Shown here: positions 6,345-32,752 of the stretch, piece after piece
How the letters are laid out: each line of letters opens with the position of its first letter
Position numbering within the stretch: position 1 is the first letter of the stretch
DNA from: Nitrospirota bacterium
GTDB lineage: Bacteria > Nitrospirota > Nitrospiria > Nitrospirales > Nitrospiraceae
Direction of reading: 5' to 3'
NCBI GenBank assembly: GCA_020027965.1
Contig: JAHRHE010000052.1
Location: 1 to 34,256, forward strand
DNA length: 34,256 nt
Position numbers and translations under genes: made by a program
Notes under the pieces: model-generated
The model's database searches: none
The model's input: the letters and a program-made list of their open reading frames with translations, nothing else
Told to the model about the DNA's origin: nothing

Positions 6345-7472
6345 CTACGTAACCCCTCCACTCCCTTCCGTAGCGTGCTTTCGATGCCGCTGGTCAAACC
6401 ACTGCTTGACAGCCGATCGCTCCAGCGGGGCGATCGTGACCGCCCCGATTCGCTCCGGCAGGACACAATAGACCCGCCCCTGCGTGACCTTCTTGTCATG
6501 CTGCATGGCCGCCCACAAGTCGGAGAAGGTCACGCGGGAAAGGCAGACGGGCAATCCCGCCTCGCTTACCAGCGCGCGCTGACGTGCGACCACCTCGCCA
6601 GAGCAGTGACCCAGATGGCGGGACAGGTCCGCCTCCTGAACCATGCCGATCGCCACGGCTTCGCCGTGCGCCAGTCTCCGGTATCCTCCCAACGCTTCGA
6701 GCGCGTGCCCCACGGTATGGCCATAATTGAGGATGCGCCGCCGGTCCGACTCCCGCTCATCTTCCTCCACCACCGAGGCCTTGATCTGGCAGGACCGCGT
6801 GATGGCTCGGATCACTGGCCCCTCTTCCAGCCTGAGCAAGGCGCGCATGTGTTGTTCAAGGTAAGCAAAGAACGCGTCGTCGGCGATCATCCCGTACTTG
6901 ATCACCTCGGCGAGGCCGGCCACCCACTCCCGCGCCGGCAGGGTCGTGAGTGTCCGCGGATCGACCAGGACGAGGCGAGGTTGATGGAAGGCCCCGATGA
7001 GATTCTTGCCCAGCGGATGATTGACGCCGGTCTTGCCGCCCACGCTCGAATCCACTTGTGCCACCAAGGTGGTCGGCACCTGAACGAACGGGAGGCCACG
7101 CGCGAAGATGGCCGCCGCAAAGCCGGCGAGGTCCCCGATCACCCCGCCCCCCAGGGCCACCAGCACGGACCCCCGCTCAAAGCGTGCCGTGGCCAGCTCG
7201 TCGAGGATGGTCCAGACCCCTCGCAGGCACTTCGCGCGCTCGCCCGCCGGGACGACGATGGCGAGGGCATCGTAGCCGGCCGATCGAAGTGACCGCATTA
7301 CCGCCGGCCCATACAACCGGCGGACCACGGGATTCGTCACCACACCCACGCGACCAGAAAACCCGAGGCCACGGAGAGACGGGCCGACTTCGCTCAGCAG
7401 CCCAGTCCCAATACGGATATCGTAGCTGCGTTCGGCGAGTGATACCTTCACGCAGGTCTCATGCGTGGACAC
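6345..7472 (-). CDS. aroB: 3-dehydroquinate synthase
   Basis: Second step of the shikimate pathway: NAD- and metal-dependent cyclisation of DAHP to 3-dehydroquinate in the cytoplasm. It has 375 residues, the usual length. The glycine-rich NAD site GGGVIGDLAGFAA (108-120) and the DSSVGGKTGVNHPLGKNLIGAF segment are intact. The three metal ligands are Glu189 (AEVIKYG), His252 (NYGHTVGH) and His269 (LAHGEA), each five residues later than in the E. coli numbering. The start is GTG at 7472 behind CAGGAG. It follows aroC across a 364-bp gap that holds repeats, and precedes the ANTAR gene. Confidence 0.97.
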   Translation of the reverse strand: MSTHETCVKVSLAERSYDIRIGTGLLSEVGPSLRGLGFSGRVGVVTNPVVRRLYGPAVMRSLRSAGYDALAIVVPAGERAKCLRGVWTILDELATARFERGSVLVALGGGVIGDLAGFAAAIFARGLPFVQVPTTLVAQVDSSVGGKTGVNHPLGKNLIGAFHQPRLVLVDPRTLTTLPAREWVAGLAEVIKYGMIADDAFFAYLEQHMRALLRLEEGPVIRAITRSCQIKASVVEEDERESDRRRILNYGHTVGHALEALGGYRRLAHGEAVAIGMVQEADLSRHLGHCSGEVVARQRALVSEAGLPVCLSRVTFSDLWAAMQHDKKVTQGRVYCVLPERIGAVTIAPLERSAVKQWFDQRHRKHATEGSGGVT

Positions 7473-7629
7473 GATGGGACTCCTGTCGCCTCTGGAAAAC
7501 CTGACGGCTGAGTGCAGACTGACGGGGCCGAGAAACGGAGGGATGGTATCACATGGCCGGAGAAACTAAAAGAAGGTGGTTCGGCTTACCGCCGAGCGGC
7601 CAGGACTGAGGACTGAGTCCGTACTCTCA
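7473..7629. other. aroC-aroB gap, proximal part, with heptamer words
   Basis: No gene is seen. Next to the aroB ribosome site there are heptamers at 7501-7521 (CTGACGG, CTGAGTG, CAGACTG) and two exact GACTGAG units at 7604-7617. These are the same words as in the arrays near 28.2 kb and 30.4 kb. The rest (7528-7603) is ordinary sequence without a clear terminator. Confidence 0.5.
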
Positions 7630-7836
7630 GGAGGATGCTCAAAAGGCGTATCCTCTGGGCTTTGGGCCCATTGCTTTGAGCCGTTGCATCGACCCATTGC
7701 AATGGAAAGGGCAATGGGTCCCCCAGCGACGGGTTCCCCGAGCAATGGGCACCCCGGATTTTGTCGGGTACCCATTGCGCAGGCTTCGTGCAATGGGTGA
7801 TGAGAACGAAGTTGGGGACCTTTTGGAGCATCCTCC
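7630..7836. mobile_element. 207-bp MITE-like element with terminal inverted repeats
   Basis: The left end GGAGGATGCTCAAAAGG (7630-7646) is repeated inverted at 7819-7836 with a single extra base. The interior has three CCCATTGC words and three GCAATGGG words. Two perfect hairpins result: 7691-7700 with 7711-7720 (10 bp, 10-nt loop) and 7770-7778 with 7790-7798 (9 bp, 11-nt loop). There is no transposase and no believable coding frame. The right end abuts the aroC stop codon (7839-7837), so the repeat could also act in 3'-end formation. No target-site duplication is obvious. Non-autonomous element, REP-like cluster and complex terminator remain open readings. Confidence 0.6.
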
Positions 7837-8997
7837 CTAAAAGGCTTTCACGTAGGCGAGATACGCGTCATAGTTCCGCTTCATTTCCTCGACACTGTCG
7901 CCACCGAATTTCTCGATCAGGGCATTGGCCATTTCAAACGCGACCACCGCCTCGCCGACGACGCCGGCCGCCGGGACCGTGCAAATGTCCGACCGCTCAA
8001 CCGTGGCATCGAAGGGCTCTTTGGTCTCGATGTCCACGCTCTGCTTGGGGCTGTACAGGGTAGAGATAGGCTTCATGGCCACCCGCAGGACGATAGGTTC
8101 ACCATTGCTGATCCCCCCTTCGAGCCCGCCGGCATTATTGGTTTTTCGGATGAACCCCCGGCCGCCCTGCTCGTAGTAGATGTCGTCATGCACCTCGGAC
8201 CCGAACCGGCGGGCCGCCTCGAACCCCATCCCGATCTCGACCCCTTTCATTGCCTGGATGCTCATGGCAGCCATCGCCAGTCTGGCGCCCAGCCGGCGGT
8301 CCCACTGGGCATAGCTGCCCAGCCCGATCGGCGGGTTGATGACGACCACCTCGAAGACCCCGCCGAGCGTATCGCCGCGATGCTTGGCGGTCCTGATCTG
8401 CTCGACCATCCGGGCGCCCGCCTCGGGGTCCGGAGAACGCACGTCCGACCCCTCCGCACGCTCGAAGGCGACGATCGGATCCTCGCAGCGTCTGGCAGCC
8501 ACCCCCCCGATCTCGGTGGTGTAACTGAGCACACGCATGTCGAACTGTGCCAGCAAGGCTTTCGCCACGGAGCCCACCGCGACGCGGATGGCGGTTTCCC
8601 GTGCGCTGGCCTTTTCCAGCACGTTCCGGATGTCACGATGGGCATACTTGATGGCCCCGACCAGGTCCGCATGGCCGGGCCGAGGGCGGGTCACCACTTT
8701 TTCTGGCGGCACCCCTCCAGGTTCGACGGCCATCACGTCTTTCCAGTTCTCCCAGTCCTTGTTCCTGATCATCAGCCCGATGGGGTTTCCGAGCGTCTTG
8801 CCTTTCCGGACCCCACAGACGAACTCGACCCGATCTTCTTCCACACGCATACGCCCGCCCCGGCCGTAGCCTTTTTGGCGGCGGGCCAGATCCTGATTCA
8901 CCCAATCGGAAGTCAGCGGGAGACCGGCCGGGACCCCCTCGAGGATCGCCAAGAGGCATTGGCCGTGCGATTCGCCGGCGTTCAGGTACCGCAGCAT
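7837..8997 (-). CDS. aroC: Chorismate synthase
   Basis: Last shikimate-pathway step: converts EPSP to chorismate using reduced FMN. It has 386 residues. Family signatures are present in order: GESHGQ near the N-terminus, [30 protein letters not shown] (FMN and substrate site), GGVFEVVV, and [21 protein letters not shown]. The C-terminal part [32 protein letters not shown] is also typical. The ATG at 8997 fits the family N-terminus [12 protein letters not shown], but the bases before it are pyrimidine-rich with no ribosome site. The gene sits downstream of pilQ (126-bp gap, nothing notable) and upstream of aroB. Confidence 0.97.
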
Positions 8998-32724: not shown

Positions 32725-32752
32725 ACCCATTGCATTCTCCAGAGCAATGGGT
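32725..32752. repeat. CCCATTGC hairpin in the rpsS-rplV spacer
   Basis: ACCCATTGC (32725-32733) and GCAATGGGT (32744-32752) form a perfect 9-bp stem with a 10-nt loop. The same two arms with loops of 10 and 11 nt occur in the 207-bp element near 7.7 kb, so this is a dispersed palindromic unit. Confidence 0.8.

Follow-up and report, generated by a model that had tools for sequence, protein, structure and literature searches.

ERIC sequences of enterobacteria (also IRU or RU-1) are intergenic repeats of 127 bp presumed to be non-autonomous mobile elements; ERIC RNA is strongly base-paired and acts on the upstream transcript in an orientation-dependent way, and the element is described with TA at its termini and with target duplication (PMC2229807). 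SPRITE of pneumococcus is a terminator-like repeat located near gene 3' ends, for which co-option as terminators has been suggested; it is AT-rich with AAAA/TTTT ends and its target duplication is also not established (PMC3049150). Moreover, hairpin repeats of the Correia/NEMIS and BIME types are combined into mosaics or co-transcribed with genes (PMC2229807; PMC3049150), and REP/REPIN systems with RAYT consist of short dispersed palindromes, in which REPs carry a GTAG/GTGG guide (PMC6006769).

In this context, we analysed a window of 34,256 nucleotides (the whole stretch of contig JAHRHE010000052.1 of a Nitrospirota bacterium, GCA_020027965.1), where positions 7630-7836 appear to hold a single, damaged copy of a short hairpin sequence that is mobile and occurs dispersed among Nitrospira-type bacteria. 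In size, fold and gene-end effects ERIC would come closest, a likeness of features, and SPRITE would be the nearest by position. The family of the window element shares with ERIC its size, intergenic place, strong pairing and presumed non-autonomous mobility; unlike ERIC, it occurs in another phylum, and neither TA nor target duplication is seen in general. Unlike SPRITE, it is a stem of about 125 bp with about 50-60% G+C, docked within a few bases of the gene. Correia/NEMIS and BIME differ from the present case, in which hairpins of one family are inserted at the apical loop of another, the inner ones being also nested concentrically in their own kind. The inner CCC(A/G)TTGC family resembles the short dispersed palindromes of REP/REPIN, but unlike REP/RAYT it had no linked Y1 gene in the stretches examined here. 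Docking polarity and concentric nesting would be the differences to stress with respect to ERIC and SPRITE. Our preferred reading, to which we assign a probability of roughly 0.75, is that of a miniature, non-coding, imperfect-palindrome mobile element of Nitrospirota, represented in the window by a composite copy, docked behind stop codons, presumably spread in trans and possibly serving as an RNA 3' end.

Results and Discussion

The composite element (7630-7836, minus strand, the aroC direction running from 7836 to 7630) was delimited from its arms, its fold and comparison with compact copies. Its distal or "left" arm, GGAGGATGCTCAAAAGG (7630-7646, minus strand), was recovered by an inverted-repeat search, and the stop-proximal or "right" arm of 18 nt (7819-7836, minus strand) has the reverse complement GGAGGATGCTCCAAAAGG, with one extra C compared to the left arm. 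The arms form 17 pairs with one bulged base, a pairing that the gapless repeat finder reports as 15 nt at 93%. The right arm abuts the TAG of aroC, which encodes chorismate synthase (7837-8997, minus strand; Pfam PF01264, E 3e-118), and since the stop codon (7837-7839, minus strand) begins at the base adjoining 7836, zero bases separate gene and element. The initial annotation, which had described a 207-bp element with 17-bp inverted ends touching the aroC stop, was therefore correct in this respect. Furthermore, 7625-7841 folded far better than dinucleotide shuffles, both as RNA (z -7.2) and as DNA (z -6.3), with 0/200 shuffles as good in each case. No gene evidence was found inside 7630-7836, as had been proposed, one mechanical ORF (7761-8063, plus strand) overlapping the element. 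Terminal inverted repeats, small size and lack of a gene, the usual marks of a MITE, are thus all present in the window element. A known RNA family was ruled out as its identity by 0 Rfam matches above gathering, in the window and in six loci with compact copies.

The hairpins enclosed by the arms had been taken for two long CCCATTGC hairpins; hairpins are indeed enclosed, but the first is concentric in three layers (7666-7750) and the second is simple. The nested module of the former, a CCCATTGC/CCGTTGC hairpin (7660-7758), was defined by a BLAST match (7665-7758) and the fold. The 5' arm of layer 1 (7666-7675) pairs with 7741-7750, and that of layer 3 (7691-7700) with 7711-7720, each at 10/10 pairs. 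The simple hairpin, ACCCATTGC-N11-GCAATGGGT (7770-7798), was supported by inverted repeats, hairpin count and fold. In BLAST, 94 bp of the interior recur as an 89% identical copy without outer arms (C17:11326-11419), and the CCCATTGC hairpins are a dispersed family separate from the outer palindrome. This inner family, ACCCRTTGC-N-GCAAYGGGT, counts 63 exact hairpins in the element's own genome vs 0 in the control, and is present in 13/60 genomes of the window's taxonomic family, corresponding to 10/22 genera. Four composites of the own genome (C61, C107, C220 and C172) likewise carry an inner hairpin at the apical loop.

Other hairpins of these kinds were seen along the way. Another exact member of the inner family, ACCCATTGC-N10-GCAATGGGT, is located outside the element at 32725-32752 of the window. 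In outer elements of other genera, a third hairpin type (CACCCGCCCACCCCGAGCTGC...GCAGCTC-like) fills the region of the tip (L268 413-584, L257 253-423, L275 726-896 and L239 565-731), and in three loci (L033, L034 and L037) inner hairpins occur among other repeated words (TGCGCGCGTC, GCGAGCAC), partly near contig ends.

In alignment with compact copies, the window copy consists of the outer arms, the left one shortened by about 40 bp, and of the nested hairpins. What remains of the left arm and apical stem is CGTATCCTCTGGG (7644-7659, minus strand), directly preceded by a gap of about 40 bp relative to the left arm of the consensus; 7644-7674 matches C127:16013-16043 at 94%, and the C127 copy retains the portion missing from the window element. 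On the other side, the right arm matches C198 at 82% and C127 at 90%, and these matches, together with the alignment, contain GAGAACGAAGTTGGGG (7802-7817, minus strand), the conserved inner portion of the family's right arm. The E values of the BLAST matches are 2e-6 and 6e-5 for the C127 copies and 4e-7 for C198. A simple, recently multiplied unit was rejected, since BLAST of the element at E 10 found only pieces in the own genome and no other full-length copy of the 207-bp composite. In the preferred reading, part of the window copy's left arm was deleted and, in common with several other copies, the element took up hairpins of the second, CCC(A/G)TTGC family in its apical loop or close to it.

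A search of the own genome (3.6 Mb, 263 contigs) with the arm pattern AGGATGYTSAAAAAGGYC, allowing up to 3 mismatches, gave 65 sites vs 12 for the reversed pattern. Many of these sites form pairs, giving compact palindromes of about 123 bp and others that reach about 206 bp, so that the window copy has related termini and compact relatives in its genome. Nine compact copies, of which eight come from the own genome and one from the aroC site of a relative, have a mean column identity of 82% when aligned, and the family consensus, about 125 bp long, reads CAGGATGCTCAAAAAGGCC...GGCCTTTTTCAGCATCCTG, with CAGGATGCTCAAAAAGG as the end sequence. The covariance model R1, trained on these nine copies, which match it by construction, also matches 168/395 Nitrospirota genomes at E 1e-5, the copy numbers per genome being lower bounds because no more than 8 candidates were scored in each; 20 of the misses are listed and 207 are not, and the listed ones include four genomes from the window's own family (G126, G138, G140 and G144). 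R1 matched 0/20 genomes not labelled Nitrospirota, a set without positive control in which three genomes are named only "bacterium".

In the own genome R1 recovers compact and composite copies; it does not report the window copy, in which the left arm is partly deleted and the interior replaced, and it also misses the composite of L133. An ortholog site that R1 leaves unreported (L272) still has a degenerate right end. Membership of the window copy consequently rests on its arm, inner-arm and apical-stem matches, seen in both BLAST and alignment, and its right end lies at a stop codon, where the aroC TAG abuts. On these sequence matches, the window element appears to be a composite member of a Nitrospirota-wide family of imperfect palindromes of about 125 bp. 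No published description of such a family was found in the open-access literature, most papers in subscription journals being outside this search.

The stem itself is under structural constraint or arm-to-arm correction. The shared fold of the nine compact copies has 43 pairs, 16 of them with two-sided changes, and 0/500 shuffles reached any of five covariation measures, with slid controls far lower. The idea of a simple element with 17-bp terminal repeats and flanking duplications was consequently abandoned: the arms are the base of a covarying palindrome, and the inner hairpins belong to another family. Since paired changes reach the outer stem, they suggest either that the hairpin forms over its full length, as RNA or as single-stranded DNA, or that one arm is copied onto the other during replication.

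At the aroC site, relatives differ in state. Scanning 450 bases behind aroC in 80 named loci, with up to 5 mismatches per arm, identified an element directly behind the stop codon in three (L090, L133 and L108); a fourth fuzzy match, 270 bases on (L109), was read as chance, being inside the next gene. L108 comes from a distant relative, whose aroC is 79% identical, and its copy of the element is divergent. Among 22 closer-relative aroC loci, two have the element and the rest do not, and loci with (L090, genome G028) and without it (L089, genome G015) occur in the same genus. Filled aroC sites also differ in their interior. Past the window element, a 57-bp spacer (7573-7629, minus strand) leads to CTTTTAGTTTC...TGTGATACCATCC (7541-7572, minus strand), which holds a second copy of the aroC-end heptamer CTTTTAG and a block that precedes the next gene in many relatives. 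In relatives without the element, the first part of 7541-7572 overlaps the aroC stop, and in the window, L090 and L133, CTTTTAG or CCTTTTAG recurs 57 to about 99 bp past the element, ahead of this block. The recurrence fits duplication, or selection keeping both the gene end and a promoter-like block, the latter being promoter-like by eye only; a consensus scan of 7450-7950 gave no sigma-70-type site. As a separate observation, in genera g2, g6, g10 and g18 most genomes had no chorismate synthase match closer than about 35-39% identity, in contrast to 81-91% in the best-matching genera, possibly due to gene replacement.

Empty sites in relatives were also found at two other places. At a site flanked as in L249, eight of 11 aligned loci were empty and three had a collapsed remnant of about 40 bp, in a sample that was not random because loci were chosen for a match running across the joint; in other genomes, this site showed gaps of full-element size. 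At the L245-flank site, 11 loci comprised two empty sites, two right-arm scars, one collapsed copy, four full inverted copies (the orientation of three of which was read by eye) and two other inserts. At both sites the empty state, by eye, is a few-base gap between neighbouring genes. The proposal of a non-autonomous mobile element is therefore supported by related termini, by compact relatives in the genome, and by empty and filled sites in relatives.

Certain sites carry an element that is old and stays in place rather than moving. In one genus it aligned at one orthologous place in 13/21 genomes searched, where 17/41 pairs had two-sided changes; 0/500 shuffles reached four of five measures, and 7/500 the fifth, further pair types. 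Two of these 13 copies carry tip inserts, and replacement at the same place could be an alternative source of the paired-change pattern.

Such element-free sites, together with small size and arms resembling terminal inverted repeats that often end beside CTA/TTA, would also be expected from a classical MITE, i.e., one IS (such as a TA-targeting IS630-type) shortened by internal deletion, with terminal repeats that the IS transposase cuts and a short target duplication; the recurrence of CTTTTAG or CCTTTTAG beyond palindrome and spacer at three filled aroC sites would agree with this. Nevertheless, no general duplication of the gene end was seen past the far end: over 40 copies, the gene-end 12-mer agreed with the far end in 7.6/12 positions vs 7.3 in shuffles (9, 9 and 8 of 12 at the three aroC sites), which gives no signal of a general target duplication, and the expectation of full-length copies with flanking duplications was not borne out. 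Positional fixation mainly of one end, paired changes all along the stem and not at the tips only, and the failure to find, in the loci examined, a larger element bracketed by lone inverted arms at a distance of 0.5-4 kb (up to 2 mismatches an arm) also speak against a classical MITE, which we consider unlikely. In one contig (C156), two similar elements in direct orientation (568-740 and 1577-1749) flank one 259-aa ORF; the gene between these two 167-bp copies was dismissed as an autonomous element, the ORF being, by eye, not obviously a transposase.

A matching transposase, which had been suggested as a check, was not recovered in the stretches examined either. The own genome encodes two Y1-type transposases (PF01797; L087 in C233 and L088 in C228), and with inner hairpins that are short, mosaic and plentiful (63 exact copies vs 0 in the control), a REP/REPIN system moved by a RAYT-type Y1 transposase could be considered, the more so as a single-strand transposase could account for insertion at hairpin tips. 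However, no hairpin of either family lies beside the two Y1 genes in the stretches around them (2.1 and 3.3 kb), one unpaired CCCGTTGC word in L087 being all that was seen, and the outer element is about 125 bp long. A REP/RAYT origin is thus improbable, the Y1 transposase was set aside as a neighbour, and these neighbourhoods in the own genome identified no mobilising enzyme. In the preferred reading of a miniature mobile element, copies would be spread by an enzyme supplied in trans.

Docking is mostly one-sided. An element end was counted as docked if it lay between -5 and +3 nt of the stop codon of an ORF with 100 or more codons, a minimum lowered to 60 for ORFs at a locus end. Among 82 full-length, primary-strand R1 hits from two locus sets (36 after dropping overlap repeats, plus 46), the right end was near a stop codon in 50/82 and the left end in 2/82, or 23/40 and 2/40 after grouping by right flank, in a count based on mechanical ORFs and on loci that hold the best-scoring copies, often orthologous. 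This recount omits antisense duplicates, L235 at 1306, L275 at 726 and aroC sites; partial hits (L217, L240 at 1, L253 at 3036, L260, L267 at 3198 and L271 at 1293); and copies of the own genome (C156, C172, C198, C226, C49 and C127:15962). For one left-docked case (L263 at 2750), scores of 42.1 vs 40.2 bits on the two strands make the polarity uncertain. In 59 partly hand-picked copies, aroC sites included, the right end was docked in 40 and the left in 0 (24/39 and 0 by groups), and in the own genome 10/14 right ends and 0/14 left ends were docked. All ten neighbour ORFs tested (nine of the own genome and aroC) had Pfam matches. Stop codons at the 50 docked right ends were TAG in 32, TGA in 11 and TAA in seven; crude ORF picking gave TAG 8, TGA 12 and TAA 6 for the 26 long ORFs of the window.

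Tight intergenic gaps alone would favour stop adjacency, without explaining that one end docks about ten to twenty times more than the other, and this polarity is the most unusual property of the family. Insertion just behind stop codons may be tolerated or favoured. A bolder version, which we hold to be doubtful, is that stop codons would be the target to which the mobile hairpin is brought in a preferred polarity, the TAG often coming with it, by a mechanism that also drives hairpins into hairpin tips, and would represent a class of stop-codon-targeting miniature elements rewiring 3' ends across a phylum.

Integron attC sites are also palindromes that lie next to stop codons, are polar and conserve their structure more than their sequence. 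A related recombination site would share position, polarity and structural conservation with attC, and the stem contains ATCCAAC and GTTGGGG, likened by eye to attC core words. Yet these words are internal, inside about 20 further stem pairs, and the neighbours tested are ordinary chromosomal genes, which makes an attC-like site very improbable indeed.

Stop-codon docking, paired changes at the orthologous site, and an A-tract and T-tract around a G+C core in the stem could also point to an immobile element, inherited vertically and kept by selection as a terminator or as a stabiliser of mRNA 3' ends. Indeed, compact copies contain GGCC-TTTTT, with the T-tract paired. For the window copy the terminator idea is weak, since scanning 7450-7950 yielded no site in the aroC direction; the sole site lies on the strand opposite aroC, starts in the apical-stem and nested part, and is about chance expectation. 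In addition, congeners show empty, inverted and collapsed states, the empty state at two sites being a few-base gap between genes, and the paired changes extend to the outer stem beyond the T-tract, which a terminator does not need, so they do not fit a plain terminator. We give little credence to an immobile terminator or stabiliser.

Conclusion

In brief, the most likely explanation is a miniature mobile element that has been tolerated or recruited as a structured 3' end. The initial annotation's alternative, in which a compound unit serves as 3' end, agrees with the docking behind stop codons as far as position is concerned, whereas the 3'-end role is one that we infer: the docked RNA hairpin may end or shield the upstream mRNA. 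Among the genomes listed, almost every one from the window's own taxonomic family has these elements, as do some from elsewhere in the phylum, and they would be a sizeable, apparently unnamed part of Nitrospira-type intergenic DNA. Their mostly one-sided docking poses a testable question, targeted insertion vs selection for hairpins behind stop codons, and the family may define many 3' ends.
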